A stretch of DNA of 64,000 nucleotides from Oceanicella sp. SM1341 (lineage in GTDB: Bacteria > Pseudomonadota > Alphaproteobacteria > Rhodobacterales > Rhodobacteraceae), in contig NZ_QRGC01000011.1 in the NCBI RefSeq assembly GCF_003448965.1, positions 1 through 64,000 of the forward strand, written 5' to 3'. A program made the translations under genes and the position numbers. Positions 3,936 to 60,855 of this stretch are shown piece after piece (position 1 is the stretch's first letter; each line of letters starts with the position of its first letter). A model generated the notes under the pieces. That model was not told the DNA's origin, did not search any database, and was given only the letters and a program-made list of their open reading frames with translations.

Positions 3936-6900
3936 ATGCCACGTTTCTTTATCGACCGGCCCATCTTTGCCTGGGTCGTCGCAATCTTCATCGTCCTGGC
4001 GGGCGTCCTGGCCATCCCGATGCTGCCGATCGCGCAGTATCCGAACGTGGCACCGCCCCAGGTCACCGTCTCGACCGTCTACCCCGGCGCCTCGGCCGAG
4101 GACCTCTACCTCACGGTCACCAAGCCCATCGAGGAGGAGCTCAACGGCATCCCCGGGCTGATCTACTACGAGAGCACCTCCGACGCGACCGGCCGCGTCT
4201 CGATCACCGTCACCTTCGAGAGCGGCACCGACATCAGCCAGGCGATGGTCGACACGCAGAACCGCATCGGGCGCGTGGAGGCCTCGCTGCCATCGGTGGT
4301 CCAGCAGCAGGGCGTGCAGGTCGAGGAGGCGGGCAACGCCTTCCTCATGGTGGTCTCGCTCATCTCCGATGACGGCAGCCAGGACGCGGTGGCGCTCGGC
4401 GACTTCGTGCAGCGCAACATCGTGAACGAGATCCGCCGCGTGCCCGGCGTGGGCCGCGCGCAGGTGTTTGCCTCCGAGCGCGCGATGCGCGTGTGGATCG
4501 ACCCCGACAAGATGGTGGGCTACGACCTCTCCACCGCCGAGATCATCGCCGCCATCCAGGCGCAGAATGCCCAGGTGGCCGCAGGCTCCATCGGTGCAGC
4601 ACCCAACCCGGTCTCGCAGCAGACCACGGCGACGGTGCTCGTGACCGGCCAGCTCACCACGCCGGAGGAATTCGGCGCCATCGTGCTGCGCTCCAACCCC
4701 GACGGCAGCCTCGTGCGCCTGCGCGATGTCGCCACCACCGAGGTGGACGCGGAAAGCTACGCCTTCTCCTCCTACCTCGACGGCAAGCCCTCCGCCGCCG
4801 TGGGCGTGCAGCTCTCGCCCACGGGCAACGCGCTGGCCACCTCGCAGGCGGTGCAGGAACTGATGGCCCAGCTCGAGGGCACCTTCCCGCCGGGCGTGAG
4901 CTACCAGATCCCCTACGACACCTCGCCCTTCGTGGAGGAATCGATCACCAAAGTGATCCACACCCTCATCGAGGCCATGGTGCTCGTGTTCCTCGTGATG
5001 TTCCTGTTCCTGCAGAACTTCCGCTACACGATCATCCCCACCATCGTGGTGCCCATCGCGCTGTGCGGCACGCTGGCGATCATGCTGGTGGCGGGCTTCT
5101 CCATCAACGTGCTCACCATGTTCGCCATGGTGCTGGCCATCGGCATCCTCGTCGATGACGCGATCATCGTGGTGGAGAACGTCGAGCGCATCATGTCCGA
5201 GGAAGGGCTCCCCCCCAAGGAAGCCACCAAGAAGGCGATGACCCAGATCACCGGCGCCATCATCGGCATCACGCTGGTGCTCTGCGCGGTGTTCGTGCCG
5301 CTCGCCTTCTTCCCCGGCTCGGTGGGCATCATCTACCAGCAGTTCTCGCTCACCATGGTGGTGTCGATCCTGTTCTCGGCGCTGATGGCGCTCTCGCTCA
5401 CCCCGGCGCTCTGCGCCACCCTGCTCAAGCCGGTGGAGGCCGGGCACCACCACGCCAAGGGCGGCTTCTTCGGCTGGTTCAACCGCGGGTTCGACCGCAC
5501 GGCGCACAGCTACTCGCGCGGCGTGGGCCGGATGGCCAAGCGCACCTGGCGCTTCATGATCATCTATCTCGCGCTCGTCGCGGGGATGGGCTGGATGTTC
5601 CTCAACCTGCCCTCCGCCTTCCTGCCGCAGGAGGACCAGGGCTTCCTGATCGCCAGCTTCCAGGGCCCCTCGGACGCCACGGACAACCGCATGCGCACCG
5701 TCACCTCGGCGGCCGAGGGCATCGTTCTCGACAACGAGGCGGTGGAGACGATGATCACCATCCAGGGCTTCTCCTTCTCCGGTGCCGGGCAGAACGCCAG
5801 CCTCGCCTTCATCACCCTGAAGGACTGGGCCGAGCGCGGCGAGGGACAGGACGCGGCCTCGCTGGGCATGCAGTTCTCCATCGCCTTCAGCCAGTTCCGC
5901 GACGCGATCGCCTTCGCGCTGTCACCGCCGCCGATCCAGGGCCTCGGCACCACCGGCGGGTTCGAGTTCCGGCTGCAGCAGCGCTCGGGCGGCTCGCAGG
6001 CCGAGCTCGCGGCGGCGCGCGACCAGCTCATGGCCGCCGCCTCGCAGAGCCCGGTGCTCACCGGCATGCGCGTCGAGGGCCTGCCCGACGGCCCGCAGGT
6101 GCGCGTGCGCATCGACCGGGAGAAGGCCAACACCTTCGGCGTCACCTTCGCGGACATCAACTCGACGATCTCCACGGCGCTCGGCTCGAACTACGTGAAC
6201 GACTTCCCCAACAACGGGCGCATGCAGCAGGTGACGGTGCAGGCCCAGGACCGCTCGCGCACCAACGTGCAGGACATCCTGAACCTCAACGTCATCAACC
6301 AGAACGGCGCCTCCGTGCCGATCTCGGCCTTCGCGGACATCTCCTGGACCACCGGCACGGCACAGGCGGTGGGCTACAACGGCTATCCCGCGGTGCGCAT
6401 CTCCGGCGAGGCCGCCCCGGGCTATGCCTCGGGCGACGCCATCGCGGAGATGGAGCGGCTGGCGGGCGAGCTGCCCTCCGGCTTCGCCTTCGAGTGGACC
6501 GGCCAGTCGCTGCAGGAGATCCAGTCCGGCAGCCAGGCGCCGGCGCTGATCGGCCTGTCGATCTTCGTGGTGTTCCTGTGTCTCGCCGCGCTCTACGAGA
6601 GCTGGGCCATCCCGCTCTCGGTGATGCTGGTGGTGCCGCTGGGCGTGATCGGGGCCGTGGCCGCAGTCACCCTGCGGGGCATGACCAACGACGTGTACTT
6701 CACGGTGGGCATCATCACCATCATCGGCCTCTCGGCGAAGAACGCGATCCTGATCGTGGAGTTCGCCAAGGAGCTGCGCGAGAGCGGCAAGAGCCTGCAC
6801 GAGTCCACCATCGAGGCCTGCCGGCTGCGCTTCCGGCCCATCCTGATGACCTCGCTCGCCTTCTCCATGGGCGTGATCCCGATGGCCATCGCCACCGGCG

Positions 6901-23895: not shown

Positions 23896-26196
23896 TCAGC
23901 CCGGCCCGGCGAGATTGTCGGCCTCTCTGGCTGCCCTGCTGTCCGTCGCGCCGGGCTCGGGCCCCGCGCCGCGGGTTCCGGCGGCAACCAGCGCGTCCGC
24001 GTCCCGGTGCGAGAGCGCCTCGGAAAACAGGAAGCCCTGCAGGCTGTCGCAGCCGAGTGCGCGGATGCGGGCACGCTGCTCCTCGGTCTCGACCCCCTCG
24101 GCGGTGGTCTCGAGAATCGTGGCATGGGCGAGGTCGATGATCGCGCGCACGATCGCCTCGTCGCTCGAGGAGCGGCCGAGGGCGTGGATGAAGCTGCGGT
24201 CGATCTTGATGCGGTCCACCTCCAGGCTCTGCAACCGGCCGAGACAGGAGAAGCCGGTGCCGAAATCGTCGATCACCAGCCGCACGCCCATGCCGCGCAG
24301 GCTGCGCAGGTTCTGCATGTGGGCGCCAGGAGCCTCGATCATCGTGCTCTCGGTGAGCTCGAGCTCCAGCCGCTCCGGCGCCAGCCCGGTTTCGCGCAGC
24401 AGGTCGGCGAGGCGGCCGGCATAGTCCGGGTCGCGCAGTTCGATGGCCGAGACGTTCACCGAGATCACCAGATCCGGCCAGCCGCCCGCGGCGGTGCAGG
24501 CTTCGCGCATCACCCAGGCGCCGAGAGGCTCGATCAGCCCGGTTTCCTCGGCGATGGGGATGAAGACCTCGGGCGATATCGGGCCCAGTTCGGGGTGCTG
24601 CCAGCGCAGCAGCGCCTCGAAGCCGGTGAGCGCGCCGTTGCGCGCGGCATAGATCGGCTGGTAGCACACCTGCAGCTGCCCCCCCTCTCGCAGGGCGATG
24701 CGCAGGTCGGCCTCGGTGCGGCGGCGCTCCTGCAGCAGCGCGTCCATGTCCTTCTCGTAGACCACGTGGCGGCTGCGGCCGAGGGATTTGGCCCGGTAGA
24801 GCGCCACGTCGGCCCGGCGTACCAGCTCGTTGAGCCCCGGCCCGTCCGCCCCGGCCATGGCATAGCCGATGCTCATGCCCATGAAGATCTGGTTGCCCTC
24901 GATGTCGAAGGGGATGCGGGCGGAATCGCCGATACGGTCGCACAGCCGCTCGACATGGGCCTGCTCCGTGACGCCGGTCATCACGATGGCGAACTCGTCG
25001 CCCCCCACGCGGGCCACGGTGTCCGTGTCGCGGGTGAGGCCCTGCAGGCGGCGGCCGGCCTCCTGGATGAGCTGGTCCCCGGCCGGGTGGCCGAGGGTGT
25101 CGTTCACCTGCTTGAAGTGATCGAGGTCGATGTAGAGCAGCGCGGTGCCCCCGCGCCCCGCGGCGCTGCGGGTGAGCGCGCTCTCCACCCGCTCGACGAA
25201 CATCGCCCGGTTGGGCAGGCCGGTGAGGGCGTCGTGCAGGGCCATGTAATGCATCCGGGCCTCCGTGGCGCCCAGGGCCACGGATCTCCGCCAGAGCAGC
25301 CACAGGAACAGGCCGAGCCCGGCGAAGGCGAGCATGCAGAGCACGGCGAGAGCCGGCAGGATGCGCCGGCTCACCCCCGCGCCCGGCAGCACCGGCCGCC
25401 AGGTGAAATACCCCAGCGTGGCATCGGAGCCATCGAACAGCGGGTAGAGCTGCAGCGCGCCCGGCGCGTTGGCGACATCGGCGTCGAACTGCAGGTCGTT
25501 GAACAGGTAGCGCTCCTGCACCTCGGCAAGGAAACTGCCGTCGAGGTAGCGCACCGCGACGTGCACGTACTGCTCCCCCGGGGTCTGGACGATGTCGCCC
25601 GTGTCGCTCACCACCGGCTTCGCGCTCACGATCGCGGGATGGCCACGCACCATCGCGAGGTCGGTGACCCCGGCGCTGTCCATCCTGTCGGGAACGTCCG
25701 CGGGATCGTCGCGGCGCAGCACGGCGCGCAGCCGGTCGACCCGCGGGAGCACGGCGGCCGCCACGCCGGCGAAGACTTCCGGTGTCAGCAGGCGGCCCTG
25801 CTCGGAGGCAAAGATCGCCCGGTCATCGGGGTCGAGCAGGTAGGAGGCGTCGATGCCGAAGTAGCTGTAGAGCCAGCTGCCCATGTTGGCGTCGAGCCAC
25901 TCCTGGTCGCGCGGTTCCTCCTGCAGATGCAGCACCGAGTCGTCCCAGACCGTCACGCTCTCCTGCTGGTGGGCGATGTTCTCGGTCATATCCATGACCG
26001 CGAGGCTGAACAACCGCCTCTGCCGCTCGAGCGACAGGCGATCGGCCTCGCGCGCGCTCCACTCCAGCAGCAGGAAGGCCGCCCCGCTCACCGCGAGCGC
26101 GATGAGGATCGTCGGAAGGACCCTCCACAGCAGGAAGGCGCGCTTGTTGAACTCGCTGGGCCCGACGTTGCGGGTTGGCTGGCTACCGAACGACAC
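23896..26196 (-). CDS. Membrane CHASE4-GGDEF-EAL cyclic-di-GMP protein
   Basis: This 766-residue protein starts at GTG 26196, preceded by AAAGGAG; an ATG 66 bp further up lacks such a site. Order: TM1 (about 24-46), a periplasmic CHASE4-like sensor with VTVWDDSVLHLQEE, TM2 (about 283-308), GGDEF domain (RVGGDEFAIV near 398) and EAL domain (EALLRW near 527, later VIDDFGTGFSCLG and TTAEGVETEEQ). Both signature motifs are intact, so it may make or break c-di-GMP. The DHDLT-type pieces ALHDALTGLPNR and YIDLDHFKQVND are complete. It is monocistronic. Confidence 0.92.
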   Translation of the reverse strand: MSFGSQPTRNVGPSEFNKRAFLLWRVLPTILIALAVSGAAFLLLEWSAREADRLSLERQRRLFSLAVMDMTENIAHQQESVTVWDDSVLHLQEEPRDQEWLDANMGSWLYSYFGIDASYLLDPDDRAIFASEQGRLLTPEVFAGVAAAVLPRVDRLRAVLRRDDPADVPDRMDSAGVTDLAMVRGHPAIVSAKPVVSDTGDIVQTPGEQYVHVAVRYLDGSFLAEVQERYLFNDLQFDADVANAPGALQLYPLFDGSDATLGYFTWRPVLPGAGVSRRILPALAVLCMLAFAGLGLFLWLLWRRSVALGATEARMHYMALHDALTGLPNRAMFVERVESALTRSAAGRGGTALLYIDLDHFKQVNDTLGHPAGDQLIQEAGRRLQGLTRDTDTVARVGGDEFAIVMTGVTEQAHVERLCDRIGDSARIPFDIEGNQIFMGMSIGYAMAGADGPGLNELVRRADVALYRAKSLGRSRHVVYEKDMDALLQERRRTEADLRIALREGGQLQVCYQPIYAARNGALTGFEALLRWQHPELGPISPEVFIPIAEETGLIEPLGAWVMREACTAAGGWPDLVISVNVSAIELRDPDYAGRLADLLRETGLAPERLELELTESTMIEAPGAHMQNLRSLRGMGVRLVIDDFGTGFSCLGRLQSLEVDRIKIDRSFIHALGRSSSDEAIVRAIIDLAHATILETTAEGVETEEQRARIRALGCDSLQGFLFSEALSHRDADALVAAGTRGAGPEPGATDSRAAREADNLAGPG

Positions 26197-26547
26197 TCCT
26201 GCTCCTTTCAGCGGGCGGCCGGGGGGAGGCCGCGGCGCCCGGCCACGTCTAGCACAAACCACGCACGAGAACCGTCATTGTGGCAATTTGGTGAATATAT
26301 CCTGATCATCGGGGCAGAGTGTTGCAATTGCGGCATCAAGCAGCATCCGGCTTTCCTTGAGCAGTGCGGCGCCGGCGGCACCGCCTTCATGGGCTGCACG
26401 ACCGTGCCCGACTTCGGGGCAGACATCCTCACCTTTTCCGGTTATGCGGGACCATTCTCGCACATCTGCCGGACAGCGCCCCGTCACCGTCGCGTGGCCT
26501 CGCCTCCTGCCCGCTCTCCCGCGCCGTTCCGCTTCAAGGTACCGTCC
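26197..26547. other. Divergent intergenic region, 351 bp
   Basis: This separates the GGDEF-EAL gene from the isochorismatase-fold gene. It includes an A+T-richer patch (GGTGAATATATCCTGATC at 26291-26308) that could hold promoters in either direction, and repeated TTGCAA-type words. The frames crossing it are short and show no family features. Nothing else recognised. Confidence 0.4.
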
Positions 26548-27120
26548 ATGACCCGTCTGCTCCCCGCCGCCGCCGCCCTCGTGCTCATCGACCTGCAGGA
26601 GGGCATCCTGTCGATGCCGCTCGCGCCGCGGTCCGGCTCCGAGGTGCTGGCGGCGGCGCGGCCGGTGGCGGAGCGGTTCCGCGCCGCGGGAGCGCCGGTG
26701 GTTCTGGTGCGGGTGGGCTGGGCGGCGGATTTTGCCGACGCGCCGCCGCAGGCGGTCGACCAGCCGCTGCCCCGGCCGGAGGGCGGCCTGCCCGAGGGCT
26801 GGGGCCGTCTCGCCCCGGGGCTCGAGCGACCCGGCGACCTGGTGATCACCAAGCGCCACTGGGGCGCCTTCCACGGCACCGAGCTCGACCTGCAGCTCCG
26901 CCGCCGCGGGGTGCGCAGCATCGTCCTGGGCGGGATCGCGACGAATTTCGGTGTCGAGTCCACCGCCCGCGCCGCCTGGGAGCACGGCTACGATGTGGTG
27001 CTGGCGGAAGACCTGTGCACCAGCGTCTCGGCCGAACTGCACGAGATGAGCCTGCGCGCGGTGATGCCGCGCATCTCGCGGGTGCGCCTGTCGGGTGACA
27101 TCCTGCTGGCGGCGGAGTGA
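26548..27120 (+). CDS. Isochorismatase-fold hydrolase lacking the catalytic Cys
   Basis: The 190-residue protein has the cysteine-hydrolase fold. The first Asp is in ALVLIDLQEGIL and the Lys in VITKRHWGAFHGTELD. In the usual third motif (T..CV..TAR) the Cys is replaced by Gly: GGIATNFGVESTARAAWEHG. Members lacking the Cys exist, for example PhzD-type isochorismatases use Asp and Lys without it. The start at 26548 was chosen because upstream residues in the same frame are shadow sequence of the GGDEF gene. It is followed immediately by a permease gene, so the two probably share a substrate. Confidence 0.82.
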   Translation: MTRLLPAAAALVLIDLQEGILSMPLAPRSGSEVLAAARPVAERFRAAGAPVVLVRVGWAADFADAPPQAVDQPLPRPEGGLPEGWGRLAPGLERPGDLVITKRHWGAFHGTELDLQLRRRGVRSIVLGGIATNFGVESTARAAWEHGYDVVLAEDLCTSVSAELHEMSLRAVMPRISRVRLSGDILLAAE

Positions 27121-28324: not shown

Positions 28325-28347
28325 GGGCCTTCCCCGCGGGAAGGCCC
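28325..28347 (-). terminator. Hairpin after the TRAP transporter operon
   Basis: GGGCCTTCCC (28325-28334) and GGGAAGGCCC (28338-28347) form a 10-bp stem with a 3-nt loop, 8 bp after the minus-strand dctM stop. No T-run is present. Confidence 0.45.
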
Positions 28348-56980: not shown

Positions 56981-57688
56981 TCATGCCCCCTGTTCCGGGG
57001 CGCTCACCCTGAGCCGGGTGATCCCGGGATCCAGCCTGCGCACCACGGCGAGGATCTGCGCGGAGAGCTGTGCCTCCACATAGCCGGCCACGAAACCGTT
57101 CGGCGCCTGCAGCATCAGCAGGTCGCCCGCCTGTCCCGCCCCGGTGAGGCGCCCGTACCAGGCGCGGCTGCGCGCGGGGTCGATCTCGGCCAGCCTGGCG
57201 CGCGCCTCCGCCCAGAGCCCCGGGGGCTCGGGCCGGAGCACCGCTGCACCGCGATCGGGAAAGGGCACCACTGTGGGCGCCTCTTCGGCCATGGTCTCCG
57301 GCGCGCCGGTGAGCCGCTCGACGAGGTCCGGGCCCACCGCTTCCCAGGCCGGCCGGGTTGCGGCGAGGATGGCCTCGATTCCGAGACCATAGACCGTCAC
57401 CCTCCCCCGCACCGCCGGCAGGTGCACCACGATCCAGCCCATGGCGCGCAGCTTCGCCATCTCGCGCTTCACCGTGCGCTCGTCGACATGCCAGAGCCGG
57501 GCGATGTCGGCCCGGCCGATGCTGAGCCGGTCCGTCGCCCAGTTGTAGCGCGCGGTCACGAGAGCGATGAGCCTCAGGGCAAGGCGCTGCTGCGAAGACG
57601 GGCCCGAGAGCGCATGGCTGGAGAGCGCGCTCAGCAGGTCGTACTTCCGGGACGCGGCACCGCGTCCGACTGCGCGTCCGGCAATCAT
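56981..57688 (-). CDS. DnaA-like plasmid replication initiator
   Basis: The 235-residue protein starts at ATG 57688 (MIAGRAVGRGAASRKYDLLS) after GGGGAG; a longer frame upstream has no such site. The central winged helix is visible: RLSIGRADIARLWHVDERTV with KREMAKLRAMGWIVVHLP. The C-terminal part, WAEARARLAEIDPARSRAW and LLMLQAPNGFVAGYVEAQLS, resembles the N-terminal domain of DnaA (the W.....L..N.F...W pattern). This is the architecture of the DnaA-like replicase known from Rhodobacterales plasmids. It lacks an AAA+ ATPase. It is divergent from parAB over a 580-bp putative origin. Confidence 0.87.
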   Translation of the reverse strand: MIAGRAVGRGAASRKYDLLSALSSHALSGPSSQQRLALRLIALVTARYNWATDRLSIGRADIARLWHVDERTVKREMAKLRAMGWIVVHLPAVRGRVTVYGLGIEAILAATRPAWEAVGPDLVERLTGAPETMAEEAPTVVPFPDRGAAVLRPEPPGLWAEARARLAEIDPARSRAWYGRLTGAGQAGDLLMLQAPNGFVAGYVEAQLSAQILAVVRRLDPGITRLRVSAPEQGA

Positions 57689-57902
57689 GCGCGGCGCTCC
57701 CCGGGTGGTCCCGGTCCTGCCTCCGGGATATGCTGCTCGGTGCCCTGGCTCAGGGCTGTTTATCGGTCCGTCGGCTGGTGCAGGCAACGCTTTTCTCCGG
57801 ACGCTGTCAATTTACGTCCGGTTGCCCCGGTGCTGTCAAGCCCCGGCCCGGCACCGCCAGCCTTCCAGCCTGATCTGATAAGAAAAAAACGGTGAATATG
57901 GT

Positions 57903-57984
57903 TATGGGGGACATGCCATGTGACCCCCATATGGGCCATCATGTCCCCCTAACTCTGGTGGCGCCGCAGTTTCCGTCCCCCATA
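57903..57984. repeat. Four iteron-like TATGGGGGAC repeats
   Basis: TATGGGGGAC at 57903-57912 (plus), TATGGGGGTC at 57922-57931 (minus), TTAGGGGGAC at 57943-57952 (minus) and TATGGGGGAC at 57975-57984 (minus) lie within 82 bp. The first and third form an inverted pair with longer flanks (GTTA.GGGGGACATG). They are likely binding sites of the divergent replicase. Confidence 0.6.
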
Positions 57985-58230
57985 TCCGAGCGCGTCGGGG
58001 CGCGGGTTCCGCCGGATGGCGCCGAATCGGCCGGGCGTGAACTCTCCGGTGCAACAGCCTGCCCGCGCTGGGTTTTGGCGGGCCGCGGCTGGCGGTATCC
58101 GGATGTTATTCGGTTTTGCAATCCGGCGCAAATCAACGTAGTTTCGGGAACGGCAGGAATTTGCGTCCCGCAAGGTGCGCGAAACAACGAGACCGACAGG
58201 CAAGAGCATCACAGAGCACCGGAGGCGCAT

Positions 58231-58246
58231 CTTCCCCGCGGGGAAG
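58231..58246. repeat. parS-like palindrome, copy 1 (upstream of parA)
   Basis: CTTCCCCGCGGGGAAG is a perfect 16-bp palindrome, 24 bp before the parA start, flanked by GCGCAT on the left as is copy 5. Likely a ParB centromere site. Confidence 0.7.
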
Positions 58247-58247
58247 G

Positions 58248-58260
58248 TTCCCCCGGGGAA
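58248..58260. repeat. Degenerate parS-like palindrome overlapping the parA ribosome site
   Basis: TTCCCC-C-GGGGAA is a shortened form of the same palindrome, one base after copy 1. Its right half GGGGAA continues into GGAGAG, the parA ribosome site, so ParB binding could block parA translation signals or transcription. Confidence 0.45.
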
Positions 58261-58269
58261 GGAGAGCGG

Positions 58270-59586
58270 ATGTACACCCATGAAGACCTGGCCGCGCTGC
58301 AGGCGCAATCGCTGCGGATGCAGACCTGGATCCGCAAGCAGACCTTCTCGCCGGAGATGGAGAAGACGCTGCGGCGCTTCTCCTCCTGGGAGGTGGCGGA
58401 GCTGATCCTGAAGGTGAACCAGTCCACCTTCCGCGGCCGGCTGGCGGCCGACCCCTCGCTGCCCGACGGCGAGGTGGAGGAGGAGGGCCGGCAGCGCTGG
58501 TATTCCCTCGACGAGATCAACGAGCTGCGCCGCCGCATGAAGGTGAACCGCCGCTCGCTGCTGCCCTACCGCCCGGCCGGCAAGCGCGCCATCCGCGCCG
58601 CCATCGCCAACTTCAAGGGCGGGGCCGGCAAGTCGACCGTGGCGCTGCACTTCGCCCATGCCGCAGCACTCGACGGCTACCGCGTGCTGCTGATCGACTT
58701 CGACCCCCAGGCCACCCTCTCCCACGCCATGGGCATGACCGACGTCGACGAGGACCACACCGTCTGGGGCATCATGGCCCGCGACCTGGTGCGCGAGACC
58801 GACCGGATGAACGCGGCCTCGGTGGGGGCCGAGAGCGGCACCGCCCTGCCCCGCCGCCAGCTTCCCGCCTCGATCCGCGACCTCGGCCTCTCGGGCCTGC
58901 GGGCGACCGATTTCATCAAGCCCACTTCCTGGCCCACGATCGACATCATCCCGTCCTGCGCCAACGCGGCCTTCGTGGAGTTCGCCTCCGCGCAGTACCG
59001 GCACCTGAACCCGGACTGGTCGTTCTTCGCCTGCGTGGCGCGCTACCTCGAGGGCATCCCGGACGATGCCTACGACCTCATCCTGTTCGACTGCCCGCCG
59101 GCCATCGGCTACCAGTCGATGAACGCGGTCTTCGCGGCCGACATGCTCTACATCCCCTCCGGCCCCGGCTACTGGGAATACGATTCCACCACCAGTTTCA
59201 TCGGCCAGCTCGCCGAGGCGCTGGAGGACCTCGCCGCCGGGTTCGAGACCTTCCCCGCGGGGAAGGTGGCGCTGCCCAAGGCCTTTCTCGAGCTGCGCTT
59301 CCTGCTCACCCGCTACGAGCCCGGCAACGAGCTGCACCGGGCGATGCGCGACGCCTTCCGCAAGGTGTTCGGCGCGCATGTCACCGAGCACCCGATCGAG
59401 CTCACCCGGGCGGTGGAGCAGTCCGGCCGCTTCCTGTGCTCGGTCTACGAGATCGACTACCGGGACATGACCCGCGAGACATGGCGGCGCGCCCGCGCCA
59501 CCTTCGACCAGGCCTATGACGAGTTTCGCGCCTCCTTCTGCTCGGCCTGGGACAAGGTCGATGCCGGCCGGGAGGACGCGGCATGA
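58270..59586 (+). CDS. parA: ParA-type partition ATPase
   Basis: The 438-residue ATPase starts at ATG 58270; the longer open frame before it covers the origin. Residues 1-105 form an extended N-terminal region with a helix-turn-helix (SSWEVAELILKVNQSTFRGR, then RWYSLDEINELRRRM). The deviant Walker A is KGGAGKST (116-123), motif DFDPQATLS follows, and Walker B is LILFDCPP (about 270-277). It drives plasmid segregation with ParB and probably represses its own operon. At residues 328-333 the gene contains the palindrome that encodes FPAGKV. Stop and parB start overlap (ATGA). Confidence 0.94.
   Translation: MYTHEDLAALQAQSLRMQTWIRKQTFSPEMEKTLRRFSSWEVAELILKVNQSTFRGRLAADPSLPDGEVEEEGRQRWYSLDEINELRRRMKVNRRSLLPYRPAGKRAIRAAIANFKGGAGKSTVALHFAHAAALDGYRVLLIDFDPQATLSHAMGMTDVDEDHTVWGIMARDLVRETDRMNAASVGAESGTALPRRQLPASIRDLGLSGLRATDFIKPTSWPTIDIIPSCANAAFVEFASAQYRHLNPDWSFFACVARYLEGIPDDAYDLILFDCPPAIGYQSMNAVFAADMLYIPSGPGYWEYDSTTSFIGQLAEALEDLAAGFETFPAGKVALPKAFLELRFLLTRYEPGNELHRAMRDAFRKVFGAHVTEHPIELTRAVEQSGRFLCSVYEIDYRDMTRETWRRARATFDQAYDEFRASFCSAWDKVDAGREDAA
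59248..59267. repeat. parS-like palindrome, copy 2 (inside parA)
   Basis: ACCTTCCCCGCGGGGAAGGT is a perfect 20-bp palindrome inside parA. In frame it reads (T)FPAGKV, residues 328-333. ParA relatives do not need this peptide, which suggests the DNA sequence is what is selected. Confidence 0.7.
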
Positions 59587-60734
59587 GCCGGAAGCGCAGG
59601 GTATTCCACATCGACCTTCCCGACGAGCCGGAGGAGACCTTCCCCGCGGGGAAGGTCGAGCCCGAGGCTCCGCCGCCGCCCGCGCCGGAGCCCGAGCCCG
59701 AACCGGAAGCGCCCGCCGCCCCGCGCCGCGGCCCGATGGCAAGTGCGGTGCGCGAGACCGCCGAGGCCCTCGCCGAGCGCCGCGGCCAGGAAGCGAAGAT
59801 CCGCGCCGAAAACGATGCGCTCGCCGCCGAGCACGTGCGGCTCAAGCGCGCCGGGCTGATCACCGATCTCGTGCCGCTGGAGGCGATCCGCGTCTCCAAG
59901 TTGATGCGTGACCGCCGCGCCGGTGCGGACCCGGAACTGGAGGAGCTAAAGGAGAGCATCCGCGCCGTCGGCCTGTCGAACCCGATCCGGGTGGAGCAGG
60001 GCGAGGACGGCAGCTTCGAGCTCATCCAGGGCTTCCGCCGCCTCTCCGCCTACAAGGCGCTGCTGGAGGAGACCGGCGACGCGGCCTGGGCGCGCATCCC
60101 CGCCGGCTTCGTGCCGCGCGGTGAGGACCTGCCGGCGCTCTACCGCCGGATGGTCGACGAGAACATGGTGCGCAAGGACATCTCCTTCGCCGAGATGGCC
60201 GAGCTCGCCCGCGTCTATGCCGCCGACCCGCGCAACGGGGTGGAGGATGTCGACGCCGCGGTGCCGGTGCTGTTCCGCTCCGCCTCCTACCAGAAGCGCA
60301 GCTACATCCGCGCCTTCGCCCAGCTGCTCGACCTGCTGGGCGACGCGCTGCACCACCCGGAGGCGATCCCGCGCAGCCTCGGCCTCGCGCTGCGCAAGCG
60401 GATCGAGGAGGTGGAGGGCGTGGTCGGCGCCCTGCGGCGTGAGCTCGGCCGGCTCGGAGACTGCACGGCGGAGGAGGAGCTCGCCGTGCTGCGCCGCTAC
60501 GCCGCCGGCGGTGCCGAGCCGCAGGAGAGCTTCCCCGCGGGGAAGGTGGCCAAGGGCGGCGCCGTGCCGCGCCCGGCGCGCACCACCTTCCGGCTGGAGC
60601 TGCCCGAGGGCGAGGCGCGCTGCACCGCCTCGCGCGGGCGGCTGGAGCTGCGGCTCGACCGCGATTTCTCCGAGGTCGAGCGCCGGCGGCTGGAGGCTGC
60701 CGTCGCCGCCTTCTTCCGCACGCTCGACGCCTGA
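59583..60734 (+). CDS. parB: ParB-type partition protein
   Basis: The 383-residue protein has a Pro/Glu-rich N-terminus with palindrome-encoded FPAGKV at 20-25, then the ParB/Srx-like domain: ELEELKESIRAVGLSNPIRV and the CTP-binding-type box LIQGFRRLSAYKALLEE. The helical DNA-binding domain follows (MVRKDISFAEMAELARVYAA, then FRSASYQKRSYIRAFAQLLD). A second FPAGKV lies at 317-322, before a C-terminal domain likely to dimerise. It binds parS-like sites and stimulates ParA. Gene overlaps parA by 4 bp. Confidence 0.93.
   Translation: MSRKRRVFHIDLPDEPEETFPAGKVEPEAPPPPAPEPEPEPEAPAAPRRGPMASAVRETAEALAERRGQEAKIRAENDALAAEHVRLKRAGLITDLVPLEAIRVSKLMRDRRAGADPELEELKESIRAVGLSNPIRVEQGEDGSFELIQGFRRLSAYKALLEETGDAAWARIPAGFVPRGEDLPALYRRMVDENMVRKDISFAEMAELARVYAADPRNGVEDVDAAVPVLFRSASYQKRSYIRAFAQLLDLLGDALHHPEAIPRSLGLALRKRIEEVEGVVGALRRELGRLGDCTAEEELAVLRRYAAGGAEPQESFPAGKVAKGGAVPRPARTTFRLELPEGEARCTASRGRLELRLDRDFSEVERRRLEAAVAAFFRTLDA
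59637..59656. repeat. parS-like palindrome, copy 3 (start of parB)
   Basis: The same 20-bp palindrome as copy 2, coding for FPAGKV at ParB residues 20-25, in a disordered stretch where a peptide insertion would be harmless. Confidence 0.7.
60530..60545. repeat. parS-like palindrome, copy 4 (end of parB)
   Basis: The 16-bp core CTTCCCCGCGGGGAAG, coding for FPAGKV at ParB residues 317-322 in a linker before the C-terminal domain. Confidence 0.7.
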
Positions 60735-60746
60735 GTGTGCGCGCAT

Positions 60747-60762
60747 CTTCCCCGCGGGGAAG
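60747..60762. repeat. parS-like palindrome, copy 5 (after parB)
   Basis: The 16-bp core lies 12 bp after the parB stop, with the same GCGCAT left flank as copy 1. It may double as a transcription-terminating hairpin. Confidence 0.7.
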
Positions 60763-60826: not shown

Positions 60827-60855
60827 TTGAGTGCCGCGCAAAATGCCCTCATAAT
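60827..60855 (+). promoter_or_regulatory. Promoter candidate for the DUF1612-like gene
   Basis: TTGAGT (60827-60832) and CATAAT (60850-60855) are spaced by 17 bp, about 40 bp before the ATG at 60894. A TATAAT at 60862-60867 is closer but lacks a well-placed -35. Confidence 0.45.

Follow-up and report, generated by a model that had tools for sequence, protein, structure and literature searches.

Predicted parS centromere sites inside the parA and parB genes of a DnaA-like-I type plasmid locus of Rhodobacterales

The parAB locus and its palindromes

The first 64,000 nucleotides of contig NZ_QRGC01000011.1 of Oceanicella sp. SM1341 (assembly GCF_003448965.1), here called the window and contained in a contig of 154,934 bp, carry a parA-parB gene pair, a divergent gene for a DnaA-like replication initiator, and five exact copies of the palindrome CTTCCCCGCGGGGAAG. 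A scan of the window places these copies at 58231, 59250, 59639, 60530 and 60747, precisely where an earlier sequence-only reading of this DNA had put them. Three copies are coding and all three are read in frame 0, yielding the peptide FPAGKV at ParA 328-333, ParB 20-25 and ParB 317-322; the shared frame and peptide had also been described in that reading, as had the two copies with a longer 20-bp form, which start at 59248 and 59637. The right flank of the 16-mer is GT in 5/5 copies, while the left flank is AC in just 2/5. As argued below, a plasmid of the DnaA-like-I type very probably uses these palindromes as its parS centromere sites, a prediction drawn from sequence comparison. The features of the locus are as follows.

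56981..57787, minus strand: DnaA-like plasmid replication initiator, divergent; 43% identity (E 2e-45) to a Marinovum pMaD5 protein
58231..58246, no strand: predicted parS copy 1, intergenic; exact match; Paroceanicella pD4M1B has a copy at -34
58248..58260, no strand: degenerate copy, TTCCCC-C-GGGGAA, with a half-site spacing of 1 bp, not 2
58270..59586, plus strand: parA, ParA ATPase of 438 amino acids; AAA_31 at 1.2e-24; 75-98% identity to 15 homologues
59248..59267, no strand: predicted parS copy 2, 20-bp form, in parA codons 328-333 (FPAGKV)
59583..60734, plus strand: parB, 383 amino acids, overlapping parA by 4 bp; ParB_N at 2.9e-6; 47-92% identity to 16 homologues
59637..59656, no strand: predicted parS copy 3, 20-bp form, in parB codons 20-25 (FPAGKV)
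60288..60347, plus strand: predicted recognition helix, ParB residues 236-255 (a helix in the structure model); 236 and 237 vary with half-site class
60530..60545, no strand: predicted parS copy 4, exact match, in parB codons 317-322 (FPAGKV); probable interdomain linker
60747..60762, no strand: predicted parS copy 5, exact match, 13 bp 3' of parB

Copy 1 begins 39 bp before the parA ATG and adjoins the likely ribosome-binding region. The degenerate copy at 58248, which had been counted as an additional site, is present in the sequence; it is probably incidental and non-functional, because its half-sites lie one base too close together and it has no counterpart in the nearest relative (locus L006). 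A promoter scan returned a single promoter-like site, at 60827, and none upstream of parA. The intergenic region between the dnaA-like gene and parA (57788-58230) contains blocks conserved in L006, including inverted GGGGGACA/TGTCCCCC stretches and CAAATCAACGTAGTTTCGGGA, and these blocks are a candidate origin or operator.

The Pfam models AAA_31 (ParA) and ParB_N (ParB) score above their cut-offs, establishing the presence of a ParA ATPase/ParB gene pair. The divergent initiator matches the "plasmid replication protein DnaA-like-I" of Marinovum pMaD5 at 104 of 242 positions and in the same gene layout; NCBIfam assigns no family to it. Matches to ParB occur in 602 plasmid records, the best being Paroceanicella profunda pD4M1B (90.9% identity), and the commonest genera among them, Phaeobacter, Pseudosulfitobacter, Paracoccus and Leisingera, all belong to Rhodobacterales. 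By sequence, these matches assign the parAB operon to the DnaA-like-I type of Rhodobacterales plasmids, with which the locus shares the divergent DnaA-like initiator and parAB and from which it does not differ in any of the tested features. The type name is used in annotations and in publications that cite Petersen et al. 2011 (Mol Biol Evol 28:1229). The repABC equivalog models fall below their cut-offs (202.8 of 348.45 bits for TIGR03453 RepA and 31.3 of 201.5 bits for TIGR03454), no repC is found in the window operon, where the gene after parB encodes a DUF1612/helix-turn-helix protein, and the repABC parS consensus GTTNNCNGCNGNNAAC, as given in passages of PMC9040568, does not fit CTTCCCCGCGGGGAAG. 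At one related locus, that of Dinoroseobacter shibae pDSHI02 (L008, 2720-4004), parA is missing from the gene table, which includes a DnaA N-terminal gene of 285 bp; the parA frame that is open there runs to just 337 amino acids, and the table omits pseudogenes. This locus is possibly a decayed DnaA-like module.

With up to three mismatches allowed, CTTCCCCGCGGGGAAG has 7 matches in the window against 1.21 expected (maximum of 100 shuffles, 5), the two non-exact ones lying at 28329 (2 mismatches) and 8827 (3 mismatches). In the whole genome (5,739,010 bp, 113 contigs) the 16-mer occurs five times, every time at the parAB locus; the 12-mer TCCCCGCGGGGA is found at the same five places and no others; and TTCCCCNNGGGGAA, for which about 0.65 copies are expected by chance in 5.74 Mb at the base composition of the window, is likewise limited to the five copies at the locus. 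The genome-wide density check proposed with the sequence-only reading therefore finds the palindrome confined to parAB.

Conservation of the sites in related loci

We compared 210 candidate loci (the window, L006-L105 and L131-L239), comprising the window itself, 20 loci from named plasmids, 80 from genome records (the best 80 of 419 related loci, many from Paracoccus) and 109 from genomes of the order. Of 390 genomes searched across the order, 129 gave matches, at 130 places, 109 of which were used besides the window's own; the 20 matches outside the set come in many cases from one genus. Removal of the outgroups L021-L024 and of 19 rows with a repeated ParB left 187 loci with distinct ParB proteins, to which the counts below refer, and 185 of these have a listed half-site and enter the class tables. 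The half-site list was drawn up after palindromes had been listed in the loci. Since the loci are related, the codon and half-site counts are not independent of one another. The tree is a quick FastTree build from which the site and recognition-helix columns were excluded.

Over the 187 loci, the motif is built from a 6-bp half-site and its complement, separated by two free bases. The earlier description of a perfect palindrome holds for the half-sites, which are symmetric, and is too strict for the two centre bases, which vary: at the ParA-328 position 99 loci have GC and 60 have AC, and at ParA-64 the pair is TC in 45/51. Five half-site classes can be distinguished, TTCCCC (123 loci), GTCCCC (44), TTACCC (11), TTATCC (5) and TTTTCC (2). 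A half-site palindrome lies at the aligned ParA-328 position in 161/187 loci, and of the 185 typed loci 159 have a site of their own class near ParA 328, 120 have one no more than 100 bp downstream of parB, and 96 have one in frame 0 of the N-terminal parB codons. Upstream copies occur in 71 of the 185 (18/96 among loci holding at least 400 bp of upstream sequence), a frame +1 site lies near ParB codon 165 in 17 loci, and the position of copy 4 is occupied in just 7/185, with more sites at a differently aligned linker position. An additional frame +1 site at ParA codon 64, overlooked by a search for perfect palindromes, is present in 48 TTCCCC-class loci (e.g., L007, L009 and L010), mostly as TTCCCCTCGGGGAA; in the group with the peptide FPTGK, Leu64 is CTT in 50/53 and Gly67 is GGG in 51/53. 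The locus of Leisingera sp. NJS201 (L018) has nine copies of GTCCCCGCGGGGAC downstream of parB (4101-5234); with twelve in all, the locus accounts for every copy on its plasmid.

The same codons carry the conserved DNA across many genera, and the encoded peptide varies with it. At ParA 328 the peptide tracks the half-site class (FPAGK, FPAGN or FPTGK; VPAGT; LPTGK; LSADK; FSAEK). Exact half-sites accompany 104 of 110 ParA-site peptides of the FPAGK, FPAGN and FPTGK types and 161 of all 175 ParA-site peptides counted, 13 of the 14 inexact ones differing by one base; this answers the homologue check suggested in the sequence-only reading, with the DNA being what is kept. At the N-terminal ParB position, half-sites are exact in 93/108. 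Codon usage gives a similar picture: ParA Gly331 is GGG in 159/177 loci, compared to a background of 27% in these genes, and ranks second for codon uniformity among 367 tested ParA columns, where first place goes to the codon overlapping the start of parB, which serves as an internal positive control. ParB Gly23 is GGG in 112/118 and ranks third of 225 tested ParB columns. That the peptide follows the class, that Gly331 is nearly always GGG and that the half-site recurs within the locus together argue that it is the DNA, not the peptide, that is under selection, and that the peptide is its translation, in support of the by-product role first proposed for it. Two other codons, ParA 293 (CTC in 140/186) and ParB 240 (AGC in 155/166), are also unusually uniform, and no site was recognised at either among the 187 loci.

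Sites within a locus agree with each other. The half-site at ParA-328 is found elsewhere in its own locus in 156 of 161 cases, compared to a mean of 77.6 and a maximum of 94 when half-sites are exchanged between loci (2000 shuffles). This test uses no half-site list; a second one, choosing from a fixed list of the half-sites seen at ParA-328, gives an agreement of 155/158 (mean 77.7 and maximum 99 over 10000 shuffles). On the tree there are at least 8 changes of half-site class; therefore, the independent events are few but more than one. The sites also cluster on complete plasmids. On nine TT-class plasmids, 36 of the 38 TTCCCCNNGGGGAA sites are no farther than about 1.5 kb from parAB, the two exceptions being on a Marivivens plasmid, and on four GTCCCC-class plasmids 20 of 22 GTCCCCNNGGGGAC sites lie as near (21/22 if pPGA2_239, listed as linear, is circular). 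GTCCCCNNGGGGAC is absent from the nine TT-class plasmids and TTCCCCNNGGGGAA from the four GT-class plasmids, and Marinovum pMaD5, of the TTATCC class, contains neither. TTCCCCGCGGGGAA is absent from 49 of 61 family genomes.

Other replicons of the same genome carry other candidate sites. A par paralogue on contig 50 has TAACCC half-sites downstream of its parB, none inside genes, and its ParA loop lacks FPAGK; palindromes that differ from CTTCCCCGCGGGGAAG (TAACCC, TTGACA and TTGCCA half-sites) are present at 3 of the 5 further par-like loci. Elsewhere in this genome, contig C48 holds ten perfect copies of TTGACAGCTGTCAA within 1 kb (26116-27076, L129), which fit the repABC parS consensus and adjoin a RepA-like gene (C48:28071-29201) in which one TGA was counted.

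The ParB recognition helix and the proposed mechanism

Residue 236, the first of the predicted recognition helix, is the most informative ParB column for distinguishing TTCCCC from GTCCCC loci: it is Arg in 44/44 GT loci versus 2/123 TT loci. The neighboring residue 237 is Gln in 162 of 167 TTCCCC and GTCCCC loci; the 18 loci of the other classes all have Thr, Ser or Val there. We regard this pairing of residues 236/237 with half-site bases as a lead, not proof. The structure model of ParB (mean predicted local distance difference test score, pLDDT, of 81.0; predicted template modelling score of 0.48) falls below 50 at residues 17-20, 22-26 and 311-327, and the two embedded parB sites lie in these low-confidence stretches, which the model suggests are probably disordered. 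Residues 88-312 match ParB/Noc/KorB structures, with a best VIA-align Z of 11.8 (7ol9_A, 169 aligned residues); the root-mean-square deviation (rmsd) of 12.3 indicates that the domains are differently placed. Sulfiredoxins reach a Z of 11.1 on the N-terminal domain alone, and the DNA-binding domain alone matches the SopB-DNA structure 3mkw_B (Z of 6.9, 110 aligned residues, rmsd of 4.7). A sequence search against solved ParB structures matches only the N-terminal part (best within profile positions 80-193), so the recognition helix is compared with ParB-DNA complexes through the fold, which gives ranges. The ParA model is poor (mean pLDDT of 63.9), with residues 321-336 below 50; this stretch is gapped and variable in the alignment of homologues.

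In the mechanism that we propose, a ParB dimer would bind each 14-bp TTCCCC-NN-GGGGAA site through its helix-turn-helix, one half-site per monomer. Bound ParB would seed a partition complex that covers the parAB genes, and ParA would move this complex such that each daughter cell inherits the plasmid; the sites would thus be needed for partition. Three of the five sites lie inside reading frames, two in the probably disordered ParB stretches and one in a variable ParA loop, in which relatives carry several different short peptides. The idea of a centromere distributed across its own operon, put forward from the window alone, is supported for the predicted sites. A broader proposal, to which we give an even chance, is that the centromere is locked into the partition genes and cannot be separated from them by recombination, that the embedded sites are rewritten together when specificity changes, dictating the ParA and ParB stretches that contain them, and that residues 236 and 237 read half-site bases 1 and 3. 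Autoregulation of parAB by ParB is possible.

Several observations weigh against this interpretation. No exact half-site palindrome is present at ParA-328 in 26 of the 187 loci, and 2 of the 187 have no exact site of any listed class. Residue 236 changes just twice on the tree, and its association with class consequently rests on very few events; in the independent-pairs test there are too few events for significance. The same applies to residue 237, where class is the same in about 4 of 6 independent pairs. Two loci, L235 and L236, are of the TT class yet have Arg236. L235 has an exact GTCCCC site at ParA-328 beside four TTCCCC sites, and L236 has a GT-like ParA-328 site that is one base off; these sites are possibly relics of a class switch. 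One family genome (G034, 4.4 Mb) holds 33 copies of TTCCCCGCGGGGAA, the listed ones being scattered, nearly all of them over contig 1, and the motif is therefore not par-linked everywhere. Finally, two of the five further par-like loci in the window's genome (C37 and C103) have no convincing repeated palindrome.

Alternative explanations, known systems and significance

The best-surviving alternative, in our estimate an improbable one, is that the sites serve mainly as an operator array for the repression of parAB by ParB (or ParA) and that partition comes second. The position of copy 1, 39 bp upstream of parA, would suit an operator, and autorepression by RepA/RepB is established in the related repABC operons, where passages of PMC4492784 describe an involvement of parS in the full repression of p42d and an approximately fourfold rise in pTiR10 expression upon parS removal. 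According to the same passages, however, parS is dispensable for strong repression in that paper's own plasmids, and the upstream copy is present in 71 of the 185 typed loci compared to 159 for the copy at ParA-328.

Three further explanations were tested, by folding scores, half-site symmetry and genome counts, respectively, and judged unlikely. That the palindromes act in the parAB transcript as RNA hairpins, for attenuation or processing, is compatible with the free centre, which could form a loop, and a hairpin with CGCG in its loop can form at all five copies; the score is best for the copy downstream of parB (z of -4.06, 0/200 shuffles as good), followed by that at ParB-20 (z of -2.32). 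The other three copies, however, score between -0.41 and -1.73, the innermost half-site pair is conserved although it falls in the predicted loop, and some sites are found upstream of parA or at a distance of over 1 kb downstream of parB. Agreement in class within a locus is expected of protein-binding sites, not of hairpins, and we consider hairpins very unlikely. Selection on FPAGKV itself, as an interaction or localisation motif of ParA/ParB with the palindrome as an accident of codon use, would explain one peptide occurring three times, in the same frame and in both proteins. Yet loci with different peptides (FPAGK, FPTGK, VPAGT, LSADK or FSAEK) retain the symmetry of the DNA, some copies are outside genes or, in 17 loci, occupy frame +1 of parB, GGG is nearly fixed against its 27% background, and the model is of low confidence at both ParB peptides, making this reading slightly less credible still. 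In-frame palindromes inside genes are known from the Rickettsia palindromic elements, and a mobile repeat of that kind might account for the 33 copies of the 14-mer in G034, but the window's genome contains no further copy, and sites occupy the same positions across genera with sequences that agree within the locus, which leaves it hardly any probability.

The sequence-only reading held that parS normally lies outside genes, which published systems contradict: parS sites inside genes, even inside parB, have already been reported (PMC4368675, PMC4409726, PMC4492784 and PMC9040568, each as far as the relevant passages go). Nine of the ten predicted parS sites of Pseudomonas aeruginosa are in coding sequences, like three of the five in the window, but they are spread over the chromosome and not repeated inside parA or parB (passages of PMC4368675). 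The parABSm system of the Thermus thermophilus HB27 megaplasmid resembles the window in having a 14-bp palindrome inside parB, bound by its ParB in gel shifts; it differs in that there is one site, in parB only, and the corresponding passages of PMC4409726 describe neither family-wide codon conservation nor class switching. The repABC plasmids likewise have replicon-specific palindromes in or near the operon, some inside repB, as described for rhizobia, and others in genes downstream of repC (passages of PMC4492784 and PMC9040568). Unlike the window's operon, they have repC and the consensus GTTNNCNGCNGNNAAC, and sites internal to repA are not described in those passages. For repABC of Rhodobacteraceae, class-specific palindromes are established marks of compatibility (text excerpts of PMC5613091). 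A comparable switch of specificity is known for ParB/Noc, in which residues contacting the half-site change with its bases; in Caulobacter ParB, Arg173 contacts the guanine at the first half-site base (PMC7383237, in part). In the window ParB, the residue that varies with base 1 is 236, the first of the predicted helix, which is not equated with 173.

Papers that mention DnaA-like plasmids (PMC9426580, PMC9025767, PMC3832669, PMC6209633, PMC3910702 and PMC9044938) do not describe these sites in the portions of text concerned; Figure 2 of PMC9044938 depicts palindromes from a strain in which a DnaA-like plasmid is also present. PMC6052148 leaves palindromes and ParB unmentioned, and among the 15 of 3,744 papers listed in a literature text search for the palindrome strings, none concerns plasmid partition by title. 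Relative to the literature text examined, which comprises parts of these papers and excepts Petersen 2011, what is new is the codon-fixed embedding of the sites in both parA and parB across much of the family, with concerted changes of class.

The 185 typed loci in five half-site classes constitute a natural data set on a multi-site centromere that seemingly switches specificity together with the protein binding it, despite several of the sites being constrained by coding, and the changes of such a centromere can be traced across many species. This makes the splitting of plasmid compatibility groups directly testable and offers a sequence-based classing of DnaA-like plasmids. It also warns against taking conserved FPAGK-type peptides of ParA and ParB as protein motifs.

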